IMG/VR virus record: IMGVR_UViG_3300031539_000043
Coordinates: 1 to 53,354 of that record
Length of the DNA: 53,354 nt
DNA from: a virus
Reading direction: 5' to 3' (one strand)
The position numbers and the translations under genes are program-made. This document shows, in pieces, positions 6,503 through 48,765 of the stretch (within the stretch, counting starts at the first letter, position 1; every line of letters begins with the position of its first letter). The notes under the pieces were generated by a model. That model did not search any database. It was not told the origin of the DNA and saw nothing but the letters and a program-made list of their open reading frames with translations.

Positions 6503-6554
6503 TATGCCAAAAAGAGATATTATTCAATAACATATTTTCGGGAGGAAAATTAAA

Positions 6555-8396: not shown

Positions 8397-8406
8397 AGGA
8401 TATTAT

Positions 8407-30161: not shown

Positions 30162-30344
30162 CTATCCCTCCTTTAAAACTAAATCTTTAATATCAAACAT
30201 ATAAATCTCTTTTTTTTCAGGTAAGATATTTAAAGGTTTTATTTTTTTAACTTCTGTAGTTGTTTTATTAATTTCATAAAAATAACTGAATCTATCACAA
30301 ATAGTAGATCTTGTATATGTTCCATTTGATGGTGATGCACTCAT
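30162..30344 (-). CDS. Small hypothetical protein (60 aa)
   Basis: Starts at an ATG that overlaps the beta subunit's stop codon (ATGA), the same arrangement as between beta' and beta, which supports translation. The product begins MSASPSNGTYTRSTICDRF and contains 'VKKIKPLNILPEKKEIYMFDI'. No family is recognised. It could be a small RNA polymerase-associated factor by position only. Confidence 0.6.
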   Translation of the reverse strand: MSASPSNGTYTRSTICDRFSYFYEINKTTTEVKKIKPLNILPEKKEIYMFDIKDLVLKEG

Positions 30345-33340
30345 TTATGTTCTACCCCCAAAACCGTTAGATATGAGTTAAATAATTTAACTGCTTCTGG
30401 AGTTATATCTATCTTTTTCTTTTCATCATCCAGATCAAATTCAATTAAACTCCTAATATAACGATTTTTTAAATCAATACAATCTGATTTTGTAGTAAAG
30501 AACTCAAATAGATTATTCGGAGCATCATGACCTACAATACATGCCATTTCCATTTCACCTATTCTTTGTCCTCCTTTATTTTTCCTTCCTCCTAATGGTT
30601 GAAGTGTTCTTTTTGCATATGTACCAATTCCTCTAGCAGCTATTTTCTCTTCTGCAATATGAACCATTCTAAAGAAATACATATATCCAACTGCAATTGG
30701 ATTTACTAAAAACGTCTTTGATAATGGGTCATATAATTCTTGTTTAAATAAACTGGCAGAATATTCTAAAGCTTTTTCAAGTTCTTCAATTTTTATAGAT
30801 TCAAAAGGAGGTTGAATTAAATATAAATCTTCAATAAATTTAGAATCAATGGTATCAGTCAACTGTTCTTCAAATTGTTTATAATACCAATTATCTTTTG
30901 TGTTATCCACAATTTTTATAAAATTTAACAAATATTCTTTTAACTGTGGTTGTTCTATATTATTATTTAACATTTCTATCATTTTAATTTTTATACCCTC
31001 TAATGCTATAGAAAGATGAAGTTCGTATAGTTGCCCAATATTCATTCTTGAGATTATACTCAAAGGATTTATACAAATATCCAAATGTCTTCCATCTTTT
31101 AATTGTGGCATTTTTTCATGTTCTACAATTCTTGATACAACACCTTTATTTCCATGACGGTTTCCTAGTTTATCTCCAACTTTAATTTTTCTAAAATGGA
31201 CTCCAATCATTTCAATATATATACCATTTATTCTCTCTCTTTTATTTTTATACTTTCCAACAAATGAAAATAAATCTAAACTGTTTTCTTTAATAAATTT
31301 ATCAGCTTCTACTTTTGATAATTTATCTTTGATTATTTTTTTAAGATAATTTTCATTTTCTTTTTGATTATGAATTCGTTCTTCAACCCATTTTTTAAAT
31401 TCTGGAATATCAGAATTCCATTCATTTGCATAAACATTTACTTCTGATATAATAAACTTCTTTTCTGCGTCTAATGTAGTTGTTTCTCTAAAAACAGAAT
31501 AATAATCATCAGAATTTAAATTCTTAATTTTAGCATATGGTTCCCCAACTTGAATTACACTGTATTCATCTGGAAGTGGTTTATATTTGTTTTTATCTAA
31601 ACTTAATAGAACTTTATTTGGTGGTATTTTAAATGATAGATCTCTATAGTGAACAGATGTTAAAATATCTTCACTAACTAAACGATCTGAAATCACAATA
31701 CCATCTTCATAATTGTTTCCATAATAAATCATAACTCCTGTTAAAAGATTTTTACCAAAGTTTATTTTTCCGCCTTTACAGAAATTACTTTCTGCTAACA
31801 CTTCTCCTTTCTTAAATTTATCACCAGGTTTAACATAGATATGCATAAAATCCATATGTTCAACATAAATTTTTCTATATGATATATCAAACACTTTAAC
31901 TTCTCCGGTTATATATTGAACCATTAAATATTTTTTATCAATATAAACAACTTCTCCATCATCTTTAGCTATTTTTACAAATTGTGTATATTTACTAAAT
32001 AATCCTTCACACCCAGATGAGATCATTGGTCTATCAAACTTTTTTAACATGATTGATTGTCTCATTTGTGAAGATGACATTTGTAGTCTGGTTTGGTCAT
32101 CATGTTCTAAAAATGGGACCATAGTTACAGGAATTGAGATTGGAAATTCGTTTTGTTTATTTGTAAATTTTAAATTATCATCCAAATCAACATTAGGAAC
32201 CAGATTTTGTAACACTCCACAATTATCCCTATCTGGAGTATCAACTGGGCATATTCTTCCAAACATTGTTGGACATATATCCCTTAAATGACTTGGAATG
32301 TTTTCTCTTTTAAATCCACCAGGACCTAAAAGACTAATCCTTGATAATTTAGTTAATTCTTCAATGGGATTTATTGAGAAATCAAATTGAACTATATCAG
32401 AAACATTACAATCAGAAATTACTTGGTTTGAATTAATATTAAATTTTGGTTGTCTGGCAGTTCTGTTTGAAAAACATAGGTCAAAAACATTTTTGGATAA
32501 TTTTGAATAAATTACATACTCAAAACATCTAACCCTTTTATTTGTAAATAAAGTATCATCTATATATTGGATTTTAATTGCTTCAATTAATTCTTCAATG
32601 ATTGTTGGTTTAGTTAAAAACTTTGCTGTTAGAACATCAACTTTTGGTATTAGATCTAAAGCATATATAATATCTTCCCCTTTTGATTTAGCATTGTATC
32701 TTGAGTATGTTTTTCCCAATTCAACTATAAAATCATCTTGTGTATAACCTTTTGATTCAGTATAATATTCCTTTAAATCATTAAGTAATAATTCATAAAG
32801 ATTAGTAGAGTTTTCATCTGTTGTTATATTATTAAGATTATACTTGTTTACCAATGTATTAGAATTATAGTAGGCAAACATTAATAGTGCTAGTGGAATT
32901 TTCTTTCCCAAGAAACTTACTTTAATATTTGGAATTATTTTATCTTTGAAAATCATAAGGGTTGCAACATTAGTTCTTAACTTAATAGATTCTCCCCTTG
33001 TTACAACTGGAATATCAAATAATTGAAACAGGGGAATCTTTTTTCGACCATTTATCATAATATAATTCCCATTAATTAACTTAGGAATAAACATACTAAG
33101 ATCTATTTTTGCTGGTCCTTTTTGAAGTAGTATGGATAAAGTTTGTTTTATAGTTTTTGATAATTCTCCGGATGTAAACCTGGAATCTTTTAAACCTATT
33201 TCTGTTATATCAAAACCAATTTCTTTAACTGGTTGTAATATTTCTGTAACTGTATCCAGTAGTTTATTGTAATCATTTTGTCTTATTCCGAAAATACTAT
33301 CGTCTGCATTGATTTTGTAATTAGGATTTATAATGTTCAT
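30341..33340 (-). CDS. Phage RNA polymerase beta subunit-like protein (999 aa)
   Basis: One intact chain. Signatures: 'SLLGPGGFKRENIPSHLRDICPTMFGRICPVDTPD' (the rifampicin-region and fork-loop sequence, with 'PVDTPD' near residue 360), 'NNYEDGIVISDRLV', 'GDKLGNRHGNKGVVSRI' (active-site lysines), 'LDICINPLSIISRMNIGQLYE' and 'GGRKNKGGQRIGEMEMACIVGHDA'. It is shorter than bacterial beta (about 1,150-1,340 aa), mainly in the N-terminal lobes. With beta' it would make a phage-encoded transcription machine. Unlike in phiKZ-type phages, the subunit is not split. The start overlaps the beta' stop by 4 bases. Phage RNA polymerases of this class transcribe middle or late genes in relatives; that role here is inferred. 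Confidence 0.93.
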   Translation of the reverse strand: MNIINPNYKINADDSIFGIRQNDYNKLLDTVTEILQPVKEIGFDITEIGLKDSRFTSGELSKTIKQTLSILLQKGPAKIDLSMFIPKLINGNYIMINGRKKIPLFQLFDIPVVTRGESIKLRTNVATLMIFKDKIIPNIKVSFLGKKIPLALLMFAYYNSNTLVNKYNLNNITTDENSTNLYELLLNDLKEYYTESKGYTQDDFIVELGKTYSRYNAKSKGEDIIYALDLIPKVDVLTAKFLTKPTIIEELIEAIKIQYIDDTLFTNKRVRCFEYVIYSKLSKNVFDLCFSNRTARQPKFNINSNQVISDCNVSDIVQFDFSINPIEELTKLSRISLLGPGGFKRENIPSHLRDICPTMFGRICPVDTPDRDNCGVLQNLVPNVDLDDNLKFTNKQNEFPISIPVTMVPFLEHDDQTRLQMSSSQMRQSIMLKKFDRPMISSGCEGLFSKYTQFVKIAKDDGEVVYIDKKYLMVQYITGEVKVFDISYRKIYVEHMDFMHIYVKPGDKFKKGEVLAESNFCKGGKINFGKNLLTGVMIYYGNNYEDGIVISDRLVSEDILTSVHYRDLSFKIPPNKVLLSLDKNKYKPLPDEYSVIQVGEPYAKIKNLNSDDYYSVFRETTTLDAEKKFIISEVNVYANEWNSDIPEFKKWVEERIHNQKENENYLKKIIKDKLSKVEADKFIKENSLDLFSFVGKYKNKRERINGIYIEMIGVHFRKIKVGDKLGNRHGNKGVVSRIVEHEKMPQLKDGRHLDICINPLSIISRMNIGQLYELHLSIALEGIKIKMIEMLNNNIEQPQLKEYLLNFIKIVDNTKDNWYYKQFEEQLTDTIDSKFIEDLYLIQPPFESIKIEELEKALEYSASLFKQELYDPLSKTFLVNPIAVGYMYFFRMVHIAEEKIAARGIGTYAKRTLQPLGGRKNKGGQRIGEMEMACIVGHDAPNNLFEFFTTKSDCIDLKNRYIRSLIEFDLDDEKKKIDITPEAVKLFNSYLTVLGVEHK

Positions 33341-36048
33341 TCGATTTTTTCTCCTTTTAGTATTTTATCCATAACTCCAGAATATATTCCTTCATACAAT
33401 ATACCCTGTCGAATACTTCGTTTGGGATTTGAAAAAGCCATAGCAAGTATCCAAGACTCTTTATTTGGAGTAGATTGAATACTAAAATATTCTGGCTGGA
33501 CTGTTTCACGATTAGGCAATAGTCTCCATTTTTTATGTCCAACCCACATAAGTTGGGATACAACACATTCATAATGAACATGATAAATACTTTTATCATA
33601 TACATGAAATAGCTCTTCAACTATTTGAGTATAATTCTTGTTAATAAATTTATGTAATATTCCTGTAATAAAACTAAGATCTCCAACTATATCTTGCTGT
33701 TTCATATCATTATCATGATTATCATCTTGTTCATCTTTTATAACTGCAGAACCAGATGTATGAAACGTTCTAAGAACTAATTGTGTAGATCTTTCTCCGA
33801 GAGTTTGAGCAGCTATTATTCCAATAAATCTACTGTTAAGAGTTTTATATAATTCGCCATAACATTTATGACAAATCTTTGAATTTTTACAAAGAATTGG
33901 ACTTCTAATAAGAATTCTTTTTCCCAATAGTGGCATACAATTATCTTTTTGAATAAGAGTATGACTTCCATCTTCTTGTTTCATCCAACGACCCACTAAC
34001 ATATATGCTTTTCTTTTGGTATTAACATCTACTTCTAAATGGTCAGTAGTACCACAATCTTCTAAGGTTGTACTAAGTTGAAGGTTTGTACATGTGAATA
34101 TTAATTTTCTTGATAAATATCCGCTTGTGCCTGTATTTAAAGCAATATCAAGTAGTCCTTTCCTACAACCATATGTTGAATAAAAGAATTCTTGTTGATC
34201 TAAACCATCAATTAGATTCCGTTTAATTGGTAATGGTAATATTTCACCATCAAAATTTGAGATAAATCCTCTTGTCAAAATTAACTGTTTAACTTGATCC
34301 CAACTACCTCGTGCTCCAGAATCAATCATATATGAATATTTAAAATGCTTTCTTAATTCATCTGTTAGATTCTTACTAGAAAAGCTAACTAACTGGTCTC
34401 TTATGTCACCTTTATATATATCATCTCTAAATTTTTGTGAATCTTCAAATTTACAATCATTTAACGACATGGTGCAACCAAATAAAGTTGCGTATTTAAA
34501 ACCAATCATTTTTATTTTGTCAAGAATTTCAATAACATCCGAGCTTTTATATTTATCTTTAATATCATTTAATATTGCCATTAATGTTTTTTTATTAACT
34601 ACTGTGTCAATAACTGGATAATCTTCAGGCAAACATGAGTTAAAAACCTGTTGACCTTTACTTATTTTATGATTTTTATACTCAACAATTTCTTTAAGAT
34701 TATCGAAACTATCATTTGTTAAAGAGTATATACCCAGAATAATATCTTGACTTGGTATTGTTGATAAATCTTCATTTGCTGGGCTATGTAGATTTTCTGT
34801 TATAAATATTTTCTTTATTATTTCTTGTTTTGATACTTCGGTAATGGGAATATATACTGCCATTTGGTCACCATCAAAATCAGCATTAAATGGAGAACAT
34901 ACCAAAGGATGTATTTTAATAACCATATCTAATGTTAACTTTATCTTAAAACCTAGCATACTAAGTCTATGAAGAGATGGTTGTCTATTAAGAATACAAA
35001 CTTCCCCTTTTATAACATCTTCACAAACTCGGTATAAAACATTAGATTTTAATTTAATACATTTATCAACAAAGTCAATAGCATTATTTAATAACTTGAA
35101 TTTTCCCATCTCAATTATTTTTTTGGATATTTGTAATTTATATATTTCAAGAATCATAAAATAAGGCAAAGCACATTCATCTAATTTAAGGGTTGGATCA
35201 GGAACAATAACAGCTCGCCCTGAAAAATCAATTCTTTTTCCAAGAATATTCCCTCTTATTAATCCTTCTTTTTTTGCCATTTTTTCTAATATTCTGGTAT
35301 ATAGTTCATTAACATCTTTTTGAATTTGTTTAAAATAAGTATAATATAGATCCTTATCCCTATGAATATTAAGAATTGTTTCTCGTATGATTTCTTTCTT
35401 GGTTAAAATTTGAGTATAATACCTATTTATTTTATCCATTAATTGTTTATTCTTTCCCCCTGCCAACATAGTAGGTCTTAATTCTGGTGGGAGAACTATA
35501 ACATGATTAATTAAAAGGCTATCAATATTTTCTAAAACCAACTTCCATTCTTCAACTTCATAACCAGCTTCACGTTCAGCAACAAAATGAATTAGCTTTT
35601 TTATAGCATCCGTCTTTTCCCAGGTTTGAGTCCCCTTTGGAATATATTCAGGATTAACGGTAACAACCATATCATCCCCATCTTGATATAAGACACTTTT
35701 TTCCATTTTCATTAAATCGTCAATTCCAGTCTTTAAAGTTTTTCCGCCAATATGTACAAGTAGATCATAGAATAGTGGATTAACTACAGGCATTGGTAAT
35801 ACTATTTTTGCAAATCTTGTTCTACGAACATTACTATTTACTATGTCTACTTTACACAAATCACACTGGCCGCCGGATTTAGAAACACCATAATATGTTC
35901 CACATTGACAGGTATAGTTTTTTAAGGGTCCAAATATTTGTTCAGAAAACAAACCTTGTGGGTGAAAATATTTTTTTCCAATGATTTTTATGGACGTGAC
36001 TTCTGGTAGGTCTTCACAGAATTCTTGGTAGTTCAATATTTTTGGCAT
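33337..36048 (-). CDS. Phage RNA polymerase beta' subunit-like protein (903 aa)
   Basis: N-terminal zinc-binding domain 'YTCQCGTYYGVSKSGGQCDLCKVDI', then 'LGKRIDFSGRAVIVPDPTLK', 'LNRQPSLHRLSML' and the catalytic Mg-binding loop 'NADFDGDQM' at about residues 388-396 (three Asp). The second zinc region 'CKNSKICHKCYG' is followed by 'IIAAQTLGERSTQLVLRTFHTSG', the bridge helix/trigger loop. The C-terminal third is short, missing much of the bacterial insert and tail. All catalytic residues are present, so it should be active. The single continuous chain and its zinc regions are closer to bacterial enzymes than to the split phiKZ proteins. Its start lies 2 bases after the 69-aa gene. Confidence 0.95.
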   Translation of the reverse strand: MPKILNYQEFCEDLPEVTSIKIIGKKYFHPQGLFSEQIFGPLKNYTCQCGTYYGVSKSGGQCDLCKVDIVNSNVRRTRFAKIVLPMPVVNPLFYDLLVHIGGKTLKTGIDDLMKMEKSVLYQDGDDMVVTVNPEYIPKGTQTWEKTDAIKKLIHFVAEREAGYEVEEWKLVLENIDSLLINHVIVLPPELRPTMLAGGKNKQLMDKINRYYTQILTKKEIIRETILNIHRDKDLYYTYFKQIQKDVNELYTRILEKMAKKEGLIRGNILGKRIDFSGRAVIVPDPTLKLDECALPYFMILEIYKLQISKKIIEMGKFKLLNNAIDFVDKCIKLKSNVLYRVCEDVIKGEVCILNRQPSLHRLSMLGFKIKLTLDMVIKIHPLVCSPFNADFDGDQMAVYIPITEVSKQEIIKKIFITENLHSPANEDLSTIPSQDIILGIYSLTNDSFDNLKEIVEYKNHKISKGQQVFNSCLPEDYPVIDTVVNKKTLMAILNDIKDKYKSSDVIEILDKIKMIGFKYATLFGCTMSLNDCKFEDSQKFRDDIYKGDIRDQLVSFSSKNLTDELRKHFKYSYMIDSGARGSWDQVKQLILTRGFISNFDGEILPLPIKRNLIDGLDQQEFFYSTYGCRKGLLDIALNTGTSGYLSRKLIFTCTNLQLSTTLEDCGTTDHLEVDVNTKRKAYMLVGRWMKQEDGSHTLIQKDNCMPLLGKRILIRSPILCKNSKICHKCYGELYKTLNSRFIGIIAAQTLGERSTQLVLRTFHTSGSAVIKDEQDDNHDNDMKQQDIVGDLSFITGILHKFINKNYTQIVEELFHVYDKSIYHVHYECVVSQLMWVGHKKWRLLPNRETVQPEYFSIQSTPNKESWILAMAFSNPKRSIRQGILYEGIYSGVMDKILKGEKIE

Positions 36049-36050
36049 GT

Positions 36051-36260
36051 TTACTCCTTTGAGTTAAATTTTTCTAAAATGTGTTTCGCCAAACTACGAA
36101 AATGTTCTTTAATTATTTCAGATACTAATTTATTAATTTTGGGCATGATAACTTTTACAATTTCATTTACATCTTTCTTTGCAATAATTTTTTCATTCTC
36201 TCGTACTTTTTTCAATATAATTTTATTCAACTGTCTTTCAAATGGACTCGGGGAGATCAT
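36051..36260 (-). CDS. Small helical protein upstream of RNA polymerase beta' (69 aa)
   Basis: A start at 36258-36260 is supported by AGGAGG eleven bases before the ATG. The product (MISPSPFERQLNKIILKK...) is one long, basic, amphipathic helix-rich chain (DVNEIVKVIMPKINKLVSEIIKEHF). It overlaps the E2-like gene by 23 bases and ends 2 bases before beta'. The family is not recognised. It could be an RNA polymerase accessory factor (omega-like) or part of the conjugation cassette; nothing proves either. Confidence 0.7.
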   Translation of the reverse strand: MISPSPFERQLNKIILKKVRENEKIIAKKDVNEIVKVIMPKINKLVSEIIKEHFRSLAKHILEKFNSKE

Positions 36261-36714
36261 GGGCAGTTATACCTCCTATTTTTGATATCTCTTTTATTTT
36301 GTAATGTTTGGGATCTGGTTTTCTAAAACAATTATTTAAGTGCCAAGTTTCAACCATAGAAATTATCATAAATAAATAACTCATATCAAATTCTTTATTT
36401 TTTAGTTTTTCATCTATACAATATTCTCTTGTCTTTGGATCCATGTTTGGGTGACTTCCATTCATGATTTTTATAGATTGAACCTTATTATCTTTTGTTA
36501 TAAATGTTAACCCATTGATTTTAAAATTATTATTACAATCTTTAATTTTAAATAATTTATTTTCTTTAAATATATGTGTTGGGTAGATTTCTAAGGGGAA
36601 TAAAGATATTTCTCCTCTACCACGATTAACTTTATTTCTTGTAATCCATGAGTTCATTTTTATAAGGGTAGTTTCTACATCATGCTGCCCCAGTTTCTCT
36701 AATGAGTAAAACAC
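36238..36714 (-). CDS. E2 ubiquitin-conjugating-like protein (158 aa)
   Basis: The core 'NGSHPNMDPKTREYCIDEKL' contains H88-P89-N90 and C99, the order and spacing of the HPN motif and catalytic cysteine of E2 enzymes (8 residues from Asn to Cys in UBE2D; 9 here). It is followed by a helix 'FDMSYLFMIISMVETWHLNNCF' that matches E2's post-catalytic helix, and preceded by beta strands (FKINGLTFITKDN; VQSIKIMNG). E2 enzymes receive a ubiquitin-like protein from E1 as a thioester and pass it on. The start is a GTG at 36712-36714 with AAAGGATTA before it; a downstream ATG (36657) has no ribosome binding site. The gene overlaps the E1-like gene by 35 bases. Confidence 0.82.
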   Translation of the reverse strand: MFYSLEKLGQHDVETTLIKMNSWITRNKVNRGRGEISLFPLEIYPTHIFKENKLFKIKDCNNNFKINGLTFITKDNKVQSIKIMNGSHPNMDPKTREYCIDEKLKNKEFDMSYLFMIISMVETWHLNNCFRKPDPKHYKIKEISKIGGITAHDLPESI

Positions 36715-37612
36715 TAATCCTTTCCCCCTTTGAAGATAGGCTCATTGAATATTCTAAATCTTCTTTTTGTTTCGATATTAGATCAGCTATTACTTCTAAG
36801 ACTTTTGATGTGTCACTTCCTTTTGGAATGATAGCATATTCTGGAGAAGTTGTAAATGACATACTAAATTTTTTCCAAAGATGTTCTTCACCAACAAAAA
36901 CATCAATATCTTTTGTTTTTGCTTCTTGAACAGTTGTGTTGATATAATCTTCAAATGAATGAATTTTTTCTAATCCTTTATGAGTTTCGTATACTAAATC
37001 ATTAGAATTCTTTAATTTAATATCTTGAAATATATTGGATATTGTTTCATCAATATTTAAAGATTGAAGGACTTTATTGTTTATCATTTTATTTAAAATT
37101 TTTGGAGTTGAAATTAATTTATATGCTATAAATGCTGCTTCCCTAATTTCGCTTTTCTTTAAAATCATAAAATAACTACCTAAATGAGATTTTCTATGAA
37201 CAAATTGTCTACAGTCAATTACTAAACTTCTTTCATCAATATAAAATTTAACATCAATTTCTTGCTTTCTACTGCATATAAAATCTCGACAATCTATAAC
37301 TAAATCACATGGAGGTAGTTTTGTTGTTCCTTCATTGTATTCACTTTGGAATATTTGTGTCCTTGTGTATAATGGATCTACTCTATTAAGCAAACATTCA
37401 ACTTTTGGTTTTCCAATATCACTTTTTTTGAAGAATGAGCTATCTAAATTATTTTTTTCTACTATCTGTGGGTCAATTAATATCAATTTCTTAATATTTT
37501 CATTATAAGAAAGATGTTTATATAAAAAGCTTCCCAAACTACCTAAACCAATTATACATACATTTTGATAACATAATTCTGTCTTAGATTTTTTTGAATT
37601 CATATAATACAT
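36680..37612 (-). CDS. E1/ThiF-like adenylating enzyme A (310 aa)
   Basis: Rossmann-type nucleotide-binding 'VCIIGLGSLGSFLYKHL' (GxGxxG at 22-27), then 'LILIDPQIVEKNNLDSSFFKKSDIGKPKVECL', typical of the ATP- and Arg/Lys-binding part of ThiF/E1 proteins. A 'LVIDCRDFICSRKQ' segment follows. Family members adenylate the C-terminal glycine of a ubiquitin-like protein. The C-terminal 170 residues are unusual and lack a clear catalytic Cys domain; 'VLLIRETGAA' closes it. The start ATG has AAGGACTGTAACGA ahead. It sits downstream of the Ubl gene, after a hairpin, and overlaps the E2-like gene, so it is the likely E1 for this pair. Confidence 0.85.
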   Translation of the reverse strand: MYYMNSKKSKTELCYQNVCIIGLGSLGSFLYKHLSYNENIKKLILIDPQIVEKNNLDSSFFKKSDIGKPKVECLLNRVDPLYTRTQIFQSEYNEGTTKLPPCDLVIDCRDFICSRKQEIDVKFYIDERSLVIDCRQFVHRKSHLGSYFMILKKSEIREAAFIAYKLISTPKILNKMINNKVLQSLNIDETISNIFQDIKLKNSNDLVYETHKGLEKIHSFEDYINTTVQEAKTKDIDVFVGEEHLWKKFSMSFTTSPEYAIIPKGSDTSKVLEVIADLISKQKEDLEYSMSLSSKGERISVLLIRETGAA

Positions 37613-37629
37613 TCGTTACAGTCCTTGGG

Positions 37630-37659
37630 ATTGCTGAGGAACTTTCGCCCCCCAGCAAT
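37630..37659. other. RNA hairpin between Ubl and E1 genes
   Basis: ATTGCTG (37630-37636) and CAGCAAT (37653-37659) pair perfectly, and G-C and G-T pairs can extend the stem to about 12 bp around a six-base loop. No U-tract follows on the minus strand, so it is not a standard terminator. It lies in the only gap of the conjugation cassette larger than about 40 bases. It may stabilise or process the Ubl message or attenuate downstream transcription. Confidence 0.55.
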
Positions 37660-37676
37660 TTATTTAACTCCGCTTT

Positions 37677-38156
37677 TTATCCCTTTGACCCAGCTGGTTT
37701 CAGGAATTCTAACTCGTCACCATCTTTTAGAGTATAGGTTCCTTCAACATCTTTTCCGTTGACTAGACCTGGAGACATTTTTTCAATATTAAGAACTTCT
37801 CTGAGGAAGTCAGCAACCTCAGCAACTGAACGACCGGCAACTGGAAAGTTACCAGATGAAGCTCCACTGGATACACGAATAGTAGTAGAACATTTATCAC
37901 CTTTTTTCGCTGATGGTTTTGTAAGAACAGATGTAGCACAAAACTCAATAGCGTTCATTGCTTTGATGGCAGCTGCAGGAGCAATTGATGCTGTTGCAGC
38001 TTTTGGGGCTAATGGTCCTTGACTTTGTAATATTGCTTCGATGACAACAGCTTTAGTTTTTTTGGAAAGTCCTACAAGACCCATTTCTACTGCCAATGGT
38101 TTTAAATCATTTTTTACGTTCATGTTTTCAAGTTCTTCTCTTAAGTAAATCGGCAT
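37677..38156 (-). CDS. Ubiquitin-like protein with N-terminal SAP/Rho-N-like domain (159 aa)
   Basis: Three parts are visible. Residues about 17-43 (NDLKPLAVEMGLVGLSKKTKA) look like a helix-extended-helix SAP/Rho-N nucleic-acid-binding motif. Residues about 45-70 are an Ala/Pro-rich linker. Residues about 88-159 form a beta-grasp domain, with 'VAEVADFLREVL' as the helix and 'VNGKDVEGTYTLKDGDELEFLKP' as the last strands, very like MoaD/ThiS. The chain ends 'PAGSKG', a terminal glycine as needed for adenylation; I recall a similar GTKG ending in PRTRC-C Ubls. Ribosome binding site AAAGGAG. It is the central protein of the cassette. Attachment to targets, with the SAP-like part staying on, is inferred. 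Confidence 0.8.
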   Translation of the reverse strand: MPIYLREELENMNVKNDLKPLAVEMGLVGLSKKTKAVVIEAILQSQGPLAPKAATASIAPAAAIKAMNAIEFCATSVLTKPSAKKGDKCSTTIRVSSGASSGNFPVAGRSVAEVADFLREVLNIEKMSPGLVNGKDVEGTYTLKDGDELEFLKPAGSKG

Positions 38157-38193
38157 AATTCTTTATTTCTCCTTTGTTTTGTTTTTTGTGAAA

Positions 38194-38871
38194 TCATTTC
38201 ACGATTCGAGTTTTTGCATCAACGACCATCCTTGACATATCAAAATAAATTTCGGATGCGTTAATGTTTTGTTGAACAACGACGTTATAATATGCCCAAC
38301 ACATAATTGTAGCCACACTTAAATTAGTAAAATATAACTGCGGTTCTGATTTTGATAATTCTTCGCAAGACATTTCATCTGGGGATCTATCATCAGGCGT
38401 TGCAATTTCGGGATGATATGTACATAGATCTGGTGTTATATTAACACCCCCCTTTCTGATAAAAATTTGTACATTGCCATCTGTAAGTTCATTACCTCCA
38501 GAGATTAAAATAACATCATTTAATGTCTTACAATAGTTAGATACAACCATTCGAGTTTTGTGATTATCAACACAGAGAAAAACTATATCTTTCTCACCTA
38601 TGCCTCTAGTTATTGTATCTACAGTAATATATTCTGTAATGTATTCTATAATTAAATTTAAATATTTAATTTTAAGTTCACTTGCTTTAATTTCAGCTTT
38701 ATTACCTAACCTTATAAACTCTTGACGTTCAAGATTTTTATCTTCGTATTCATCACCATCAATTAAAGTTATAACAAAGCTAGTGTCAACTTGAGAATAA
38801 TTTAAAAATCTACATAGTCTTTCAATTAAAATACTTCCAACACCACCTAATCCAATTATTTTAATATTCAT
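38194..38871 (-). CDS. E1/ThiF-like adenylating enzyme B (225 aa)
   Basis: 'IKIIGLGGVGSILIERL' (GxGxxG at 7-13) is followed by 'LIDGDEYEDKNLERQEF' and 'CVDNHKTRMVV' (100-110), the usual ThiF/E1 positions for nucleotide and ATP contacts. 'PDEMSCEELSKSEPQLYFTNLSVA' then gives C169 as a candidate catalytic cysteine, placed as in PRTRC-type ThiF proteins. Unlike E1 protein A it has no added C-terminal domain. The start lies one base after the JAB gene's stop (AAAAGGACTATATAAA-ATG). Two E1-like proteins with one Ubl could form a heterodimer (as SAE1/UBA2) or act at different steps; sequence alone does not decide. Confidence 0.87.
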   Translation of the reverse strand: MNIKIIGLGGVGSILIERLCRFLNYSQVDTSFVITLIDGDEYEDKNLERQEFIRLGNKAEIKASELKIKYLNLIIEYITEYITVDTITRGIGEKDIVFLCVDNHKTRMVVSNYCKTLNDVILISGGNELTDGNVQIFIRKGGVNITPDLCTYHPEIATPDDRSPDEMSCEELSKSEPQLYFTNLSVATIMCWAYYNVVVQQNINASEIYFDMSRMVVDAKTRIVK

Positions 38872-38872
38872 T

Positions 38873-40198
38873 TTATATAGTCCTTTTTAAGAATTTTGTA
38901 ACCTTTGAGAATGGAGTTGTGGGATTGCCATCTGGCGTAGGAATTAAAACTTTATTTTCATGTTCATGTAAATAAGCTTCACTCCGTAACTGTTCCTCTA
39001 CTAAATCCTCAGGGGTTTGGGGGAATTCTTGTTTGAGATCATAAGCTAATGATCCATCATCTTTTTCCATACATTCTGTTTCGTCTAATATAAAATTATT
39101 AGTTTCAGGTAAATCTTCATCTGGATCTATACTAGTTTCTAAAATTTCATATGCATATTCTAGTTTAGAATCTTTGAATATACAATTTCGACATGGGTTA
39201 TATTCATCAAGATTACCAGAATCTTCAAAATCTTCAAAATCTCCATGATCTGGAAATTTGATACCATCTTTAACTGGTCCAACATTTAATATATTTTTAG
39301 TATTACCCATTTTTCCTTTATTAATCATCCATTCTGTAAGGGAATCATAACCACTTCCGAAAAAGTCAAAGAATTCATAATCCATATAATTCTGATTACG
39401 AGCAGCGTATGTTTTGGAAGTCCATACTTTTCTAGAAACTTTCTTTAACCACTTTTTGTTAAATTGTCTTTGATTTTCAGAAACTTGAATCTCAAACCTT
39501 TTATCATATCTAATAGGAGGTTTTACAATTGTTTCAGGTTCAACCAAAGTCATTTTCCCATCAATATATTTATATATCTTTGTATTATTATAGGAATTGT
39601 ATGTATATGAATTTCGAGGAACTTCAACTGATACACATTTGTCAATATAATCACATGGATCTACAATGACACGATACCCATTGACAACAATTGATACTGA
39701 AAGACTTTGATAATCATCTGTTAAATGACCAACTGTAATATGAAGTCCGTCAAAATGTTTCTCATCTTTATCATCAGTTGGAGAATGAAATGCAGACATT
39801 CTAGCATGACTATGGATTGTTCCTATCAGATTATATCCAGGAATGCCGGTTCCTTCTTCATAAGCAAGAGATGCTGCAGTTACTTCTTGTTTTGGCACAC
39901 CCAAAGTATATTTATTTTTTTCTTCACTATAATATAAAAAGACATTGGCTTCTCCACTATAAGTTTCTACAACCGCTTTAAAAAATGATATTACTTTGGC
40001 CATTTGCGGGCCTGAAATTTTAGGCAGGTCCATTTTGGCCCATGGTTTTAATTCATTAAGTATTGAGATTTTATCAACCTTTGTTACACTTTCAACTAAT
40101 CCTACTTTCTTTTTTAGAAAAATACCTTGTTTTGCAATTAAATAACATATTTCATCTGCTGGTAGTTCTCCACCTTTATACAGGTATATTGGAAACAT
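38873..40198 (-). CDS. JAB/MPN (JAMM) isopeptidase-like protein with C-terminal extension (441 aa)
   Basis: The JAMM motif is intact: in 'NLIGTIHSHARMSAFHSPTDDKDEKH', H129 and H131 with S139 and D142 fit HxH-x7-S-x2-D, with the conserved Glu upstream. The surrounding 'DGLHITVGHL' matches PRTRC-A-like JAB proteins. JAMM metalloproteases remove or mature ubiquitin-like proteins. The C-terminal half (about 240-441) is unlike the family: basic, then an acidic region (DFEDFEDSGNLDEYNPCRNC) with a CxxC. The start overlaps the 852-aa gene by 23 bases and has GAAAGGAGAATTTTAA ahead. It is the likely deconjugase or processing enzyme of the cassette. Confidence 0.9.
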   Translation of the reverse strand: MFPIYLYKGGELPADEICYLIAKQGIFLKKKVGLVESVTKVDKISILNELKPWAKMDLPKISGPQMAKVISFFKAVVETYSGEANVFLYYSEEKNKYTLGVPKQEVTAASLAYEEGTGIPGYNLIGTIHSHARMSAFHSPTDDKDEKHFDGLHITVGHLTDDYQSLSVSIVVNGYRVIVDPCDYIDKCVSVEVPRNSYTYNSYNNTKIYKYIDGKMTLVEPETIVKPPIRYDKRFEIQVSENQRQFNKKWLKKVSRKVWTSKTYAARNQNYMDYEFFDFFGSGYDSLTEWMINKGKMGNTKNILNVGPVKDGIKFPDHGDFEDFEDSGNLDEYNPCRNCIFKDSKLEYAYEILETSIDPDEDLPETNNFILDETECMEKDDGSLAYDLKQEFPQTPEDLVEEQLRSEAYLHEHENKVLIPTPDGNPTTPFSKVTKFLKRTI

Positions 40199-42734
40199 TT
40201 AAAATTCTCCTTTCTTCTACTGGATAACTCATACAAACGTCTGGGTTAATGGTATACATACCATGGAAATTGGGGTATGCTCTTACAAATGGTTGTACTT
40301 TTAATTGAGTTTGGGAATATCTAGGGGTTAAGAATCCTATTCTATCAACCACTGTTTTTAATTCTGGGTAAAAATATCCATTTGAATAAGGATTTATAGC
40401 ATCTTCTCCGCTTAGATATTGAGTGACCAATCTATCCCCCACAAGTTGAAGACATAATAAATTTTGTAAATTCCGATTTTCAGAATATGGAATTGTAGTC
40501 ATATCCCCAGGTTGATATTTAAATTTTTTTTGATATATCATCGGAATATGTTTGAGCGATTTCCATTTTTTATTATTCATGCTAATTAAGTTAAAATTTT
40601 CTTTCAGTTCATCAGCCCAAAGTGTTGCACCATTTGAACATAATGCTAATGGAACATCTCCACCAGTATCTGTTAAGAAACCAACAATTATGTTTACATC
40701 TTTCATTGGAAAATTAAAGATTTGAGGTTTCTTTGCTTGAATTTTAAGACCAGATGTCATCCCATCATACTCTTTTTCAATATGTCTTAATGTACCAACA
40801 TTAACTGTAAAATCAGATGAACTTTTATTTAGATATATATGTTCAGATTTATTTCCATGTTGATCTTCTAATAATATATTAAGATTATTATCTTTAGATA
40901 GAAAACCTGTTATAGTTTTAACTTTTAGCATTTCAATTGGATTTATCCAATTAGATGTAACAACTTTATCTCCAACTTTAAATGATAAGTCCATATCAAA
41001 ACTTTCAATAAATAAATGTTCTTTATCTTTAAATATAACATTCATAGTCTCATTATAATCAGGTTTATAAATATTGTGTTCATCTATAAACAGGTAATTT
41101 TGTGCATAAGAGTTAGTCTTTATATGTAGATTAGCGATCATTGTCGTTCCTAATCTACATATAGAAGGAAGTTTTCTAAACCCCTTAGGATTAATAAGTC
41201 TTTTATTTAAGTCATCAGAAGTTATCCAATAATTTTTATCCCCTTTCATTTCTTCGAATAGTGTTGTCATTTTACCGCCAGGTAAAATATCTAAATCATT
41301 GAATCTTAATTTTTTGATAATTTTAACAGGCGCTGAAGCTCTACTGTAACAGTTTTTATAATCAAATAGAATATCATATATTTTATTTTTAGTTAATTTA
41401 ATTCCATTTATCAATATCTTTTTCATATTCATGACTTTTATATTTTTTATATCTTCTAGAGCTATTAAAGAAGATTTAATTCTAGCTTCAATTTTTCCAT
41501 CAATTCCATATCTCATATATAAAATTTTATTATAAATTTCATTACCATGTATATTAGTAGATTTTATTATAGATCCTTGTTTAACGACTGACCCATCTTT
41601 TAAAGTTATGGATTGAATAAATCTTTCTTTCATAATACTTTCTCTCAAGTAATTCTCGAATAATTTTGTTAATTTATATATTATAATCTTTTTATTACTA
41701 TCCTCTAGTTTTATATGGGTAAGTCTACTTGCTCCTCCTGGAGACATAAATGATCTCACGAAATATTTTTTATTTTTTATCATAAAAGAATCATTTACAA
41801 ATATTGGTATTCTTTCAATATTAATAGAATCCGCCATATTATCATATATACGAGTTTTTGTTTTTTCATCTATTTTAGTTGTTAGAGTTGGTTCATAAAA
41901 GATTTTTTCTACTAATTTTTGAAATCCATTATCTTCACACTTATCAAAACGAGTATTTGAGTTTTCAACTTTATTAATTACATTACCAATTGTATCATAA
42001 GGAATCCATTCAACATTATAGATAAACATAGGATCAACTTTACTATAATATTGCCATGTTAAATAATCACAAACAAATGGTATATCATTATAAGATTGTA
42101 CGTTATATATATAATCTTTGTTAAATACATTTCCCCAAAATGTCTTTATAACACCATTGATAGCAGAGGATACAGTTTTGTTAGAATAACTAGATGTTAT
42201 CGTTCCTGTACAAACTCTTTGATTCTTATTGATATTCATTAAAGGAATTATACATAAATAATCTCCAAAACTATTAAGAGGGGTAACCCTTGAAAAAACT
42301 TTTAATTCTTTAAAGTTATTAAATTGGTCTACTAAAATTATATAAATTAAATATGGAAATGCTAAATAAAATTTATATGGTTTTTGATTTTCTTTAAACC
42401 AGTTTTCATAACCGAATTTTTTGAGATCTCCAGTTGCTTTTAATTCTGCAACAGTCATTGACATATCATAATTAAGGAACATTGTTCTCATTTGTGGTGG
42501 TTCTTCAATTACAAATAATTTATAACTATTATGATTTATATTAATAGAATATCTACAGTTTGCTGGCAATATATAAGATATTTCTTTCTTCTCTTTAATT
42601 TTATCAAAAAACATATTAATTGGCAGTTGTTTTTTTCTTTCTAGTGTGCCTTCTCGTTCTTTTTCAATATCAACATAATGATTATCAAAATAACTAACGT
42701 TCCATTTATCAAGAATTAATTCTCGCTTTACCAT
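40176..42734 (-). CDS. Large cassette protein (852 aa), PRTRC-B/E2-like N-terminal region
   Basis: Residues about 118-230 (YKFYLAFPYLIYIILVDQ; FKELKVFSRVTPLNSF; NINKNQRVCTGTITSS; SAINGVIKTFWGNVFNKDY) follow the order of strand, 'TPL', and 'VCxG' seen in the prokaryotic E2-like (PRTRC-B) family. C175 would be the conjugating-cysteine counterpart. The large rest (about 620 aa) is beta-rich and contains no motif that I know; it has several Lys/Ile-rich repeats and 'VGDKVVTSNWINP'-type strands. It sits first in the conjugation cassette, overlapping the JAB gene by 23 bases. It may be a scaffold, a substrate-selecting E2/E3-like protein or an unrelated factor. The E2-like reading is a fold-level guess. 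Confidence 0.5.
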   Translation of the reverse strand: MVKRELILDKWNVSYFDNHYVDIEKEREGTLERKKQLPINMFFDKIKEKKEISYILPANCRYSININHNSYKLFVIEEPPQMRTMFLNYDMSMTVAELKATGDLKKFGYENWFKENQKPYKFYLAFPYLIYIILVDQFNNFKELKVFSRVTPLNSFGDYLCIIPLMNINKNQRVCTGTITSSYSNKTVSSAINGVIKTFWGNVFNKDYIYNVQSYNDIPFVCDYLTWQYYSKVDPMFIYNVEWIPYDTIGNVINKVENSNTRFDKCEDNGFQKLVEKIFYEPTLTTKIDEKTKTRIYDNMADSINIERIPIFVNDSFMIKNKKYFVRSFMSPGGASRLTHIKLEDSNKKIIIYKLTKLFENYLRESIMKERFIQSITLKDGSVVKQGSIIKSTNIHGNEIYNKILYMRYGIDGKIEARIKSSLIALEDIKNIKVMNMKKILINGIKLTKNKIYDILFDYKNCYSRASAPVKIIKKLRFNDLDILPGGKMTTLFEEMKGDKNYWITSDDLNKRLINPKGFRKLPSICRLGTTMIANLHIKTNSYAQNYLFIDEHNIYKPDYNETMNVIFKDKEHLFIESFDMDLSFKVGDKVVTSNWINPIEMLKVKTITGFLSKDNNLNILLEDQHGNKSEHIYLNKSSSDFTVNVGTLRHIEKEYDGMTSGLKIQAKKPQIFNFPMKDVNIIVGFLTDTGGDVPLALCSNGATLWADELKENFNLISMNNKKWKSLKHIPMIYQKKFKYQPGDMTTIPYSENRNLQNLLCLQLVGDRLVTQYLSGEDAINPYSNGYFYPELKTVVDRIGFLTPRYSQTQLKVQPFVRAYPNFHGMYTINPDVCMSYPVEERRILNVSNIPV

Positions 42735-43105
42735 TATTCACCTCTTAGAAATTTTACGGTTTTTGCAAAGTTGATTAAAATTTTCTCTGCTTTGTTTTCA
42801 TTTATTTGCCAAACTTTTATCTTTTTTAAATTCTTAGATTCATCAACATAAAACTTATTATACAAACTCCACAATACTGTTAGATATTCTTCCTCTCCCT
42901 CTCTTTCTAAAGATAGATAAGAAACTTCATTTTTTTTAATTCCAGGAACTTCAATTGTTAGAAAAGTATTTGGTCCAGTTGGTAGTCTTTCCGGATGTTT
43001 GCAATTTTTTATTTCTTCTAATTCTATCCTTTCACACATTTTTTTAACTTGTAAGGTTAAATCCTTTTCGCCAAGTTCTTTGATTATATCCCCTAATATT
43101 GTCAT
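42734..43105 (-). CDS. Hypothetical protein (123 aa)
   Basis: Unrecognised. An acidic alpha/beta protein: 'TILGDIIKELGEKDLTLQVKKMCERIELEEIKNC', then strands 'TFLTIEVPGIKKNEVSYLSL' and a C-terminal helix. The end shares one base with the start of the 852-aa gene (overlap at 42734), so they are coupled. The start has GGAGGTTTA nearby. It may belong to the conjugation cassette, but nothing in the sequence proves this. Confidence 0.7.
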   Translation of the reverse strand: MTILGDIIKELGEKDLTLQVKKMCERIELEEIKNCKHPERLPTGPNTFLTIEVPGIKKNEVSYLSLEREGEEEYLTVLWSLYNKFYVDESKNLKKIKVWQINENKAEKILINFAKTVKFLRGE

Positions 43106-43114
43106 TAAACCTCC

Positions 43115-43435
43115 TTAATTTGTTTTAATTTTATATGTTTTATTTATAGTCTTTAAATATTCAACTTTATCAAAAGGAACTGATCTCCATCCTTTTTTCT
43201 CTAAATCATAAACATGAATAATTTTACTTTTTTGCATTAACTTGAGAATTTTTGGAATATTAATATTTTTGTCTGGATAATCTTTTTTAGGAATTAATGA
43301 AAAATCTAAAGTACATTTCATTATCCTCGTTGAACCATCAGATTTTTTTTCAAACTTTACAGTTACAACTTTTTCATCCCTAATAATATTCCAAAATTCT
43401 ATTGCATTATCTATAATAGTTGGGTCGACCGCCAT
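43115..43435 (-). CDS. DUF2693-like small protein (106 aa)
   Basis: The pattern 'VVTVKFEKKSDGSTRIMKCTLDFSLIP' followed by 'IIHVYDLEKKGWRSVPFDKVEYL' matches a family of small phage proteins (DUF2693 type) of unknown function. The end is a beta-rich, basic domain, possibly an RNA- or DNA-binding SH3-like barrel. It follows the radical SAM gene by 4 bases and precedes the 123-aa gene by 9. The family call is from memory of the pattern, so moderate. Confidence 0.6.
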   Translation of the reverse strand: MAVDPTIIDNAIEFWNIIRDEKVVTVKFEKKSDGSTRIMKCTLDFSLIPKKDYPDKNINIPKILKLMQKSKIIHVYDLEKKGWRSVPFDKVEYLKTINKTYKIKTN

Positions 43436-43439
43436 AGTT

Positions 43440-44468
43440 TTATCCTCCTTGCCTTATTTTTTTATGGACTAATTCATCCACATTGTCTCCGTACTTACTC
43501 ATGAGTAAACACGTATGATTACATAATTTACAAAACATTTTTTTATCTTTAATTATACATTGTTTAGTATAAGGATTAACTTCCATATCTTTTGTAAATA
43601 GATTATTTATGGAAACACTGTTAGGAGTATAATGTCCTCTAATACGAGTACATAATCTAATTGAACCATCAGCATCAACAGAAATATTATGTAAATCTTT
43701 TTCAATACCACAATCCATATTAGATGGCAATATATTCCAAATAGCAGGGAGTAAGAATTCCTTCATATGAATATTCAAACTTTTATCATCACATATTCTT
43801 TGAAATTGCTCTGCCAATTCGGGGGATATATGAACCAATTTCCATGGTTCTGTAACATTTGAAAAATCATAATATTCGCTTTTTGCAGTATCAATAAAAG
43901 TTATATCACTGTTAATTCCGTACCCAGTTAATTCTTTAATAAGATCATAAAGATATGGAATGTTTTCTCGCATAACAGTAATTTCAGCTACTAAATCTTT
44001 TACTATATATTTACGTTTTAAAAGATTTGTTAATCCACTGGTACTTTTCTTTACTCGATCAGATCCATCTTTTTGATTGAATACAGGATCTACTGATGAA
44101 GTAAAACCGCGTATATCCCCTCCCGTTTTTTCAAATAGTCGCTCGGTTAATGGTTGAATCTCAGGAGTGTTATTTGTAATGATTGTATAATTAATATTTT
44201 CTTTGTTGCAGAAATTAATAATATCAGGCAAGTCTTTTCTTAACAGTGGCTCACCTCCATATATGATTATGAAAATATCTGGATTATGAGCTTTGAATTT
44301 ACCTAATAATTCTATTACATACTCCGTGGACATTTCATTTTCATAATAATGTTTCATATCAGGATATATACTTGGTTTGTTTTTATAATTTCTTGTAATA
44401 CCACAGTATGAACATTTGAGATTACACCTTCTTGTTATAAATAAGTTGACTATTTTTATTTTATTCAT
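43440..44468 (-). CDS. Radical SAM/SPASM-like protein 2 (342 aa)
   Basis: C15, C19 and C22 form CxxxCxxC (RRCNLKCSYCGI), and 'YGGEPLLRKDL' is the SAM-contact GGE motif. The C-terminal part, 'DADGSIRLCTRIRG' and 'TKQCIIKDKKMFCKLCNHTC', fits a SPASM domain with two auxiliary clusters, as in peptide-modifying enzymes. It overlaps the upstream NSSS-motif protein 2 gene by 8 bases, so the pair is translationally coupled. This matches the other radical SAM/NSSS pair at 1480-3051. Peptide modification is inferred. Confidence 0.9.
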   Translation of the reverse strand: MNKIKIVNLFITRRCNLKCSYCGITRNYKNKPSIYPDMKHYYENEMSTEYVIELLGKFKAHNPDIFIIIYGGEPLLRKDLPDIINFCNKENINYTIITNNTPEIQPLTERLFEKTGGDIRGFTSSVDPVFNQKDGSDRVKKSTSGLTNLLKRKYIVKDLVAEITVMRENIPYLYDLIKELTGYGINSDITFIDTAKSEYYDFSNVTEPWKLVHISPELAEQFQRICDDKSLNIHMKEFLLPAIWNILPSNMDCGIEKDLHNISVDADGSIRLCTRIRGHYTPNSVSINNLFTKDMEVNPYTKQCIIKDKKMFCKLCNHTCLLMSKYGDNVDELVHKKIRQGG

Positions 44469-45153
44469 CGGGTCTCCCTATCATCACACCTTTATTAAAC
44501 ACATCTTTAATACTATTTATTATATGAAAAGCATCTTTTGGTCCTGATAGTTCACTTACTATTTTATTATTTATTATAAAAATGTTTCCAACTTTTGTTT
44601 CATGTATAGCAAGTTCAGGAGTTGTTGTATATTTTCCTGTTGGATCTCCACCATCCCACCCACCACTCCCAGTACTTTCAGGGATACATGTGTAAATCAA
44701 TGAACAAAAAGGAATGTTTACATCTTTTATAATTATCTTTAATAGATCTTCAATTACCTCATTAATGGGGTCAACATGAATTATAGTGTGTGGTTTAGTA
44801 TCTATATTTAATATTGTTTTTACACACTTTACTTCTTCATCTGAGTCAATCCATTCATTACTATTTACCATATGTAAAGTTATTTCTAAAGTTTCTGGAT
44901 AGTCAAAATTTTTTTCATATTCAGAATTGGTTAAAACCAACCAGGTAGAATTATATGAGTATGTACCAGTTTTTATAGTGTATTTACTTCCTTTAAATAG
45001 ATTAGTAATCATATTTTGTGTTATTTCTTTTTGAGCTAGATACCCATGACCTTGTTCAGAAAAATATTTAACAGGTAAAAATCCAGTACATTTGGTATGC
45101 AAAACAAATGATGTACTGGAACTATTGGTTACAAAGTCTGTTTTAATTTTCAT
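44461..45153 (-). CDS. NSSS-motif protein 2 (230 aa)
   Basis: Starts MKIKTDFVTNSSSTSFVL. The following sequence differs from the other motif proteins: beta-rich, with 'YSYNSTWLVLTNSEYEKNFDYPETLEITLHMV', 'PHTIIHVDPINEVIEDLLKIII', a Gly-rich 'STGSGGWDGGDPTGKYTT' loop and 'VGNIFIINNKIVSELSG'. The loop is unusual for the group and could be a modification site. It lies just upstream of and overlaps the second radical SAM gene by 8 bases. As with motif protein 1 it could be a substrate or partner. Confidence 0.85.
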   Translation of the reverse strand: MKIKTDFVTNSSSTSFVLHTKCTGFLPVKYFSEQGHGYLAQKEITQNMITNLFKGSKYTIKTGTYSYNSTWLVLTNSEYEKNFDYPETLEITLHMVNSNEWIDSDEEVKCVKTILNIDTKPHTIIHVDPINEVIEDLLKIIIKDVNIPFCSLIYTCIPESTGSGGWDGGDPTGKYTTTPELAIHETKVGNIFIINNKIVSELSGPKDAFHIINSIKDVFNKGVMIGRPDE

Positions 45154-48373: not shown

Positions 48374-48765
48374 CTGTCTATTAACTCCTTTATTTCTTGA
48401 AGGTTACAAATTGATAAGAATGTTTTTTCAATTACTTCTGGTTTTACTCCTGTCATACTATCCACTCCTTTCTCCCCAGATTCAATCTGAGCTATAATTA
48501 TTCCTTTTTTTATTAAAAGATTTTTAAGAGCATAAAATGAATTCTCATTTATATCTTCAGGATTGACGGTAAAACCATTTTTAAGTGAATCAATACCATC
48601 AAGAGTAGACTCAAAGAAATAACTTTCTTCACCCTCTTCTTCATTATCTAGTTCCCAATCTAATAAGCTCTCCAATTCTTCTTTAGTAGTTTCAAAATTT
48701 GGAGGTATTACAACTATATAAGCAGTAGATGAGCTATTTGTTACAAAATCTGTTTTTATTTTCAT
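48370..48765 (-). CDS. NSSS-motif protein 3 (131 aa)
   Basis: Starts MKIKTDFVTNSSSTAYIV. The rest is acidic (about a third of residues around 30-60 are Glu/Asp: 'LDWELDNEEEGEESYF') and helical in the second half. No other motif is recognised. Its start shares one base with the stop of NSSS-motif protein 4 (TAATG) and its end overlaps gp47 by 4 bases. Unlike proteins 1 and 2, no radical SAM gene is adjacent, though one lies about 3.9 kb downstream in the same operon. Confidence 0.83.
   Translation of the reverse strand: MKIKTDFVTNSSSTAYIVVIPPNFETTKEELESLLDWELDNEEEGEESYFFESTLDGIDSLKNGFTVNPEDINENSFYALKNLLIKKGIIIAQIESGEKGVDSMTGVKPEVIEKTFLSICNLQEIKELIDR

Follow-up and report, generated by a model that had tools for sequence, protein, structure and literature searches.

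Whether a bacterial virus can own a whole pathway for attaching a ubiquitin-like protein (Ubl) to other proteins and for removing it again is the question raised by a locus in the IMG/VR virus record IMGVR_UViG_3300031539_000043, taken here over its whole length of 53,354 bp (hereafter the window). To our knowledge, bacterial ubiquitin-like conjugation has so far been met mainly in host antiviral defence or as operon predictions without assay. The window holds T4-type terminase, tail, topoisomerase, rpoB/rpoC, SbcC-like, helicase, FolE2 and QueD genes, and between a WYL_2/radical SAM gene pair and rpoC it carries a cassette of six open reading frames (ORFs; 36238-42734), all on the minus strand, overlapping or nearly abutting, and each preceded by a Shine-Dalgarno-like sequence. 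A preliminary description had listed these six adjoining genes and had seen in them a candidate for each step of conjugation and removal; the ORFs are present where it placed them, and the roles hold at the level of sequence and residue conservation, from which we infer conjugation itself. Judged from these sequences, the six genes probably form a phage pathway of Ubl conjugation and deconjugation that is active in the infection cycle. The components are as follows:

37677..38156, minus strand: Ubl, 159 amino acids; Rho_N/SAP-like part at ~8-46, Ala/Pro-rich linker, beta-grasp part at ~85-159, end A-G-S-K-G
38194..38871, minus strand: E1a, a 225-amino-acid ThiF/E1 adenylating enzyme of PRTRC type, candidate catalytic Cys169
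38873..40198, minus strand: JAMM metalloprotease, PRTRC-A-like, E83...H129-S-H131-x7-S139-x2-D142
40176..42734, minus strand: E2D, 852 amino acids; ~1-260 like E2 family D/PRTRC-B, with N167-x7-C175, and a C-terminal extension of ~590 amino acids
36680..37612, minus strand: E1b, E1-like; Rossmann/ThiF domain without the NLxR arginine, last ~75 amino acids predicted E-E-H-E-E, end -TGAA
36238..36714, minus strand: E2h, UBC-type E2-like, 158 amino acids, H88-P-N90-x8-C99
37630..37659, minus strand: hairpin of 13 bp immediately behind the Ubl stop codon

Relatives were collected by scanning viral contigs with an E1a alignment (32 loci) and separately with rpoC (80 contigs), and are cited by L number; viral-contig scans with single JAMM, Ubl or E2h sequences found nothing. 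The conjugation pathway is supported first by the catalytic residues of four enzyme classes, which are invariant across strongly diverged orthologues. E1a and E1b both match ThiF in Pfam (3.8e-17 and 2.6e-12, respectively), in agreement with the two ThiF/E1 proteins claimed earlier, and E1a holds the complete set of the ThiF/E1 superfamily, namely nucleotide glycines, NxxR arginine, lysine, aspartate and acceptor cysteine: in 67 sequences G7, G9, G10, G12, R49, D102, N103, R107 and C169 are 100% conserved and K58 99%. The JAMM protein matches Prok-JAB in Pfam at 2.3e-4, and its E83, H129, H131, S139 and D142, which complete the JAMM/MPN+ residue set, are all 100% conserved in 79 sequences, bearing out the claimed protease. 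The large protein with an E2-like VCxG segment, E2D, matches Prok-E2_D (PF14460) weakly at 0.0037, below the gathering score, with 2e-5 for its relative in L018; it aligns with the homologues of the phages Arash and D69 and of a fecal phage, and its N167 and C175 are 100% conserved in 56 orthologues. The N-x7-C spacing is the Asn/Cys spacing of many classical E2s.

E1a matches PRTRC_ThiF (TIGR03736) over nearly its full length at 2.8e-11 (43.2 bits, cut-off 144.75), its relatives in L024 and L033 reach 1.8e-31 and 7.8e-29, likewise under the cut-off, and the JAMM protein matches PRTRC_A (TIGR03735) at 7e-10 (38.8 bits, cut-off 101.8), the homologue in Arash at 1.8e-21. The PRTRC system, operon type 6d of Iyer, Burroughs and Aravind (2006), comprises a Ubl (PRTRC-C), an E2 of family D (PRTRC-B), a JAB protein with JAB-N (PRTRC-A) and ThiF, and was described on plasmids and mobile elements (PMC1779556). 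The cassette shares with it the E2D-JAMM-ThiF gene order, a GTKG-like Ubl tail, a single conserved C-terminal glycine and an E2 that lacks the usual active-site histidine, but differs in the Rho_N-fused Ubl, the ~590-residue extension of E2D, the additional E1b and HPN-type E2h, and its rpoC-linked core status. The preliminary description rightly named PRTRC and Ubl/E1/E2/JAB operons as the closest relatives. Ubl, E1a, E2D and JAMM are best classed as a divergent core of PRTRC type ('6d' operon), which the curated models do not place within PRTRC. The ParB family had no match among the nine cassette and adjoining proteins to which that search was confined. One observation on the E2D side is that L017 carries three E2D-like genes (6252-6875, 7464-8636 and 12130-13098), two of them shortly before JAMM-E1a and the third on its downstream side, which suggests duplication of the E2 or of a substrate-side component.

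E2h, whose gene starts with GTG behind a strong Shine-Dalgarno-like sequence, had been proposed as an HPN-Cys E2-like protein with C99 as the reactive residue. Alone it has no match in Pfam, PHROGs or NCBIfam, and yet in 59 diverse orthologues H88 and C99 are conserved at 100%, with no less than 90% for P89 and N90; since this invariance is kept at a mean column identity of 13%, the HPN..C motif is not due to chance. Matches to UQ_con were found for two of the 59 members (best 0.0059). A profile of the 59 sequences, compared with the PDB up to E=10, retrieved just two E2s, both of Pex4 type and both aligned at HPN..C (E 0.12 and 0.6), and among viral models the best two Foldseek matches of the AlphaFold2 model (predicted local distance difference test (pLDDT) 77.6) were giant-virus E2s. 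A bridge is offered by a 591-amino-acid protein of L111 with the motif HPNVSSDGSVC, which matches UQ_con at 2.2e-4 and the E2h profile at 1.9e-7 (a one-target test). In its setting (L111:44-3440), upstream of SbcCD-like genes, this UBC-motif protein (HPNVSSDGSVCLGD) forms a second set with a ThiF protein and a JAMM-like protein. E2h resembles eukaryotic UBC E2s such as Pex4 and Ubc9 in its HPN-x8-C spacing, which is that of Pex4, and in having E2s as its top structural matches; it differs in being shorter, with ~10% identity and marginal scores. These lines are individually weak, but because they are independent and agree, and because the motif is invariant, E2h is likely to be a UBC-type E2, as far as sequence and models can tell. 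Comparison of the E2h and E2D profiles gave no significant match, and when E2h was run once in tblastn, plasmids gave no match and known phages only matches at chance level. The tie of E2h to UBC E2s, together with an E1b fold like that of Cap2, UBA5 and ThiF (model pLDDT 78.0; closest Foldseek matches in the PDB at E ~3e-8), further supports a conjugation pathway.

The tag itself had been described as a beta-grasp protein ending in glycine. The window Ubl alone matches ThiS in Pfam at 0.002; among 53 orthologues, TGS is matched by 37 and ThiS by 30, so that the claim holds with the refinement that the tail is G-x-K-G and not GG. G98, G134, D147, K158 and G159 are invariant, and GxKG is the C-terminal end in nearly all orthologues, many of which have one cysteine after it. 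PRTRC_C (TIGR03738) matched neither the window Ubl nor its 52 aligned relatives. In L003, L018, L024-L028, L031, L034 and L036 the Ubl is instead, much as in polyubiquitin precursors, a tandem array of beta-grasp repeats with G-x-K-G at the end of each, which implies processing by a protease. The array of L025 passes PRTRC_C (53.9 bits, cut-off 45.95). The poly-Ubl genes lie at:

L025:1722-2840
L031:5592-6698
L034:6245-6640
L036:6140-6613
L018:6936-7568
L003:5304-6095

The pathway is supported by a GxKG tail kept to its last residue, by the trailing cysteine, and by the poly-Ubl genes of relatives, which look as precursors cut by a protease would be expected to.

Two features of this Ubl are new, the Rho_N/SAP-like domain and the hairpin after its stop codon. 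Rho_N is matched by 41 of the 53 orthologues (best 3.4e-15) and is absent from the more distant Ubls (L016-L018, L021); a domain of this type, as read from its family match, suggests that the tag has its target, or exerts its effect, at nucleic acid or at the transcription machinery. The hairpin has a minimum free energy of -23.1 (37612-37680), and a z-score below -2 was found after the Ubl stop in 53 of 64 distinct relatives (median -3.3); for seven other genes the corresponding figures are 4-8 of 52-76. From this difference the strong 3' hairpin is specific to the Ubl gene, and this specificity also supports the pathway. It is a candidate attenuator or mRNA-stabilising element. The guanine-cytosine (GC) content of the Ubl gene is 40%, that of its neighbours 24-31%, and hairpin and high GC content together would fit a product required in excess.

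The locus as a whole is conserved. In 13 of the 32 loci from the E1a scan (L005-L015, L019, L020) the order is radical SAM-WYL-123 amino acids-E2D-JAMM-E1a-Ubl-E1b-E2h-69 amino acids-rpoC-rpoB, although in several of the 13 single members are missing, too divergent for the search used there, or past the contig end. The neighbours in the window are:

43440..44468, minus strand: radical SAM protein upstream of the cassette (PF04055 8.7e-14; syntenic)
43115..43435, minus strand: small WYL_2 (Sm-like SH3) protein (PF10902 1.8e-8; syntenic)
42734..43105, minus strand: conserved 123-amino-acid protein upstream of E2D, syntenic in most relatives; no family match in Pfam, PHROGs or NCBIfam
36051..36260, minus strand: small conserved protein of 69 amino acids between E2h and rpoC, with orthologues in place in most relatives
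33337..36048, minus strand: RNA polymerase beta' (rpoC), directly downstream of the cassette (tblastn to phage rpoC; synteny)
30341..33340, minus strand: RNA polymerase beta (rpoB; Rpb2_6 1e-51; synteny)

All six genes stand beside rpoC in 54 of the 60 viral contigs in which a related rpoC is preceded by 8 kb or more; these counts are of IMG/VR contigs, a few of which are nearly identical (e.g., L071/L072 and L076/L107). The six exceptions are L101 (no E1b/E2h), L091 (E1b/E2h alone), L096 and L112 (both without any cassette gene), and two divergent contigs, L111 and L116. Distances between pairs of each of the six cassette proteins track those of rpoC (r 0.62-0.86), and among the PRTRC-like E1s of phages the E1a proteins of the six-gene clade group together with support. 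The cassette is thus core equipment of a phage clade, inherited with rpoC, and its presence in 54 of 60 contigs and its rpoC-like distances set it apart from a typical accessory anti-defence gene; gene order, presence, distances and the single E1a group together support the pathway. E1b and E2h are a pair added to the PRTRC-type core and seen in this phage clade only. When E1b was used to scan a genome collection, the proteins recovered were all ThiF-like and aligned with its N-terminal part, and since none of these loci held an E2h, no cellular source of the pair was found. A further conserved ORF, with the pattern RGxSICSxxDxFR...GRAxKALVRK, separates Ubl from E1b in L005 (11189-11755) and precedes E1b in L091 (7921-8316); it is absent from the Ubl-E1b gap of the window.

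Related cores are also present in cultured phages, namely Salmonella Arash (L002), Vibrio D69 (L003) and Bacillus vB_BauM_KLEB27-3 (L202), the last with PRTRC_A, ThiF and a 235-amino-acid gp199 that matches the poly-Ubl of L025. The loci of Arash, Vibrio D69/D148/D181 and KLEB27-3 are like the cassette in having JAMM-ThiF (with E2D ahead in Arash and D69) and a Ubl or poly-Ubl ending GTKG; they are unlike it in that no E1b/E2h was found alongside, the Ubl lacks Rho_N and rpoC does not adjoin. In the Arash record (OQ632216.1), L002:107-304 encodes a 66-amino-acid Ubl ending RRTGTKG, where the overlapping frame gp251 is annotated instead. Mass spectrometry of purified Arash particles detected the homologues of E1 (Gp246), JAMM (Gp247) and E2D (Gp248) along with RNA polymerase beta and beta' (PMC10585845), and this co-occurrence again supports a working pathway; the Arash paper nowhere mentions ubiquitin or ThiF (PMC10585845). 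For the novelty claimed earlier this means that the gene composition is new, but that other phages share the setting. No operon for Ubl conjugation in a phage was reported in the open literature, subscription papers and preprints being outside the search, and none of E1, JAB or Ubl figures among the findings of a survey of 224 jumbo phages (PMC7824862), whose authors had predicted the ubiquitin systems of prokaryotes. Provisionally, then, the searchable literature describes neither this set of six genes nor the Rho_N-Ubl, its hairpin, or a cassette of core rank in phages with RNA polymerase genes.

How would such a pathway work? The JAMM protease would expose or free the C-terminal glycine of Ubl, from a trailing cysteine or a poly-Ubl, and would also strip conjugates. 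E1a would adenylate this glycine with ATP and then hold Ubl as a thioester on Cys169. An E2, by way of C175 (E2D) and/or C99 (E2h), would next accept Ubl and hand it on to the target protein. E1b could supply the other half of a two-subunit E1, or it could act as a second E1 for E2h. Ubl dosage is probably governed by the hairpin that follows its gene. The pathway would be made in one operon direction with rpoC/rpoB, as a core function of large phages that encode an RNA polymerase themselves. The rpoC gene block, the Rho_N domain and the WYL_2 neighbour together make transcription proteins or nucleic-acid-bound proteins the first candidates for targets, a tentative choice that may well turn out otherwise.

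Several points count against this pathway. The family scores of the cassette lie under the curated PRTRC and Prok-E2_D cut-offs. For E2h, each of the first 22 Foldseek matches of the structure model in the PDB is an E2, but E is 0.06-0.7 and the template modelling (TM) score ~0.3. L101 lacks E1b/E2h, and on the 92-kb contig of L091 E1b/E2h occur but the PRTRC part does not. The Arash particle proteome runs to 116 proteins and may include carry-over (PMC10585845). For PRTRC biochemistry, titles and abstracts of the searchable literature revealed no conjugate, thioester or protease assay. Lastly, E1b has the ThiF fold and its glycines (G22, G24 and G27, which like D47, D107 and C108 are 97-98% conserved in 66 sequences, with K70 at 100%), but the NLxR arginine is replaced and the catalytic set is thereby incomplete, so that the second E1 of the preliminary description may be an incomplete partner. 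E1b is likely, from its residues, a pseudo-E1 or partner half. Because the arginine is absent, an inactive partner half is suggested, by analogy with BilD, one half of which is inactive (PMC11354881), or with the two-subunit E1s of eukaryotes.

The reading that comes nearest to this pathway is of two systems side by side, a PRTRC-type Ubl-E1a-E2D-JAMM set and a separate E1b-E2h pair in which the C-terminal domain of E1b would be the modifier or a ubiquitin-fold domain recruiting the E2. L091 and L101, each with one of the two parts, speak for it, as does L111, where E1b/E2h lie beside rpoC with a different E2-E1-JAMM set; so does the conserved E1b C-terminus, whose ~75 residues with their E-E-H-E-E prediction are compatible with a beta-grasp and end -TGAA or -GGA in most orthologues. 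A sequence relationship of this domain to Ubl was not supported, profile comparison having shown no similarity, and for that reason a ubiquitin-fold domain there is put forward as a suggestion only. The conserved -TGAA end may partly be explained as a ribosome binding site for E2h encoded in the same codons, and the two parts occur together in 54 of 60 contigs. Two separate systems are for these reasons rather unlikely. Slightly less probable still is the most specific form of the pathway, namely a eukaryote-like two-subunit E1 in which E1a is active, E1b is inactive and the C-terminal domain of E1b recruits E2h, and which along with E2D and JAMM would serve to tag phage or host RNA polymerase, or DNA/RNA-bound proteins, with the Rho_N-Ubl as an essential function.

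That the Ubl system would tag or mature structural or packaged proteins, for example RNA polymerase, and be partly carried in the particle is unlikely in our judgment. The presence of the Arash homologues in purified particles, where RNA polymerase subunits abound (PMC10585845), points that way, and so does the pairing of Ubl with a JAB protease among lambda-type tail genes; lambda tail proteins I and K are indeed phage-encoded, as is the cassette, but they come without E1 or E2 and in a tail operon (PMC1779556). The cassette lies in the replication/transcription block and not in the tail block, Arash is distant (E1a 35% identical), and its proteome includes clearly non-structural enzymes.

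A sulfur carrier role is unlikely. Here E1a would make a Ubl thiocarboxylate, as for ThiS, MoaD or CysO, for cofactor, tRNA or base modification; JAMM would process the carrier, the E2-like proteins would not be ligases, and radical SAM, FolE2 and QueD would be the consumers. By Pfam the Ubl is nearest to ThiS/TGS, E1a is nearest to ThiF/MoeB and PRTRC_ThiF, and the three putative consumers are in the window, the radical SAM gene in synteny. Against these stand two separate E2-like proteins with a 100% conserved cysteine, the poly-Ubl precursors of related systems, and FolE2 and QueD genes away from the cassette; no rhodanese, cysteine desulfurase or cysteine synthase was noticed among the Pfam and NCBIfam matches of the cassette genes.

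Two defence systems invite comparison. In type II CBASS, Cap2 is a fusion of E1 and E2 and Cap3 is a JAB protease. The E1b model is nearest to Cap2 in the PDB, but E1 and E2 are separate in the cassette, Ubl stands alone and no CD-NTase was found among the adjoining genes; membership of CBASS is rejected. Bil (BilABCD) consists of Ubl, E1, E2 and JAB, with inactive and active E1 halves in one chain and a CEHH motif in the E2 (PMC11354881). The cassette, in contrast, is phage-encoded and has two separate E1-like proteins, two E2s and a PRTRC-like Ubl; separate E1-like proteins and an HPN-C E2 exclude it from Bil. The match of E1b to the PADLOC 'E1-E2' models (6.6e-10) reflects similarity of the E1 domain only. 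Improbable, finally, is counter-defence, in which the phage Ubl machinery, mainly E1b/E2h with JAMM, would remove or outcompete the host Ubl of Bil or CBASS: these systems do use E1, E2 and JAMM to conjugate Ubl or a CD-NTase (PMC10097602, PMC11354881), E1b does reach the PADLOC models and many JAMM proteases on Borg elements have been proposed as anti-defence (PMC12660748), but such genes are usually patchy whereas the cassette occupies one place in 54 of 60 contigs and diverges with rpoC, it brings its own Ubl and E1 beyond a protease, and its GxKG Ubl tail is PRTRC-like rather than Bil-like.

Two observations concern other parts of the window. FolE2 (29035-29889, 6.1e-65) and QueD/PTPS (50539-50931, 1e-35) are parts of a 7-deazaguanine-type pathway and possibly have a role in DNA or tRNA modification. 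Four otherwise unlike small proteins (1480-2001, 44461-45153, 48370-48765 and 48765-49121) share a near-identical N-terminus, MKIKTDFVTNSSS(S/T)(S/A), which we read as a shared N-terminal tag or leader.

For the biology of these viruses, the finding means that a bacterial virus seems to own a whole pathway of tagging and untagging and to keep it as core equipment beside its RNA polymerase. The Rho_N/SAP-like fusion on the tag suggests modification directed at transcription or nucleic acid. With related cores in the cultured phages Arash, D69 and KLEB27-3, the function of PRTRC, which has long been open, becomes directly testable.

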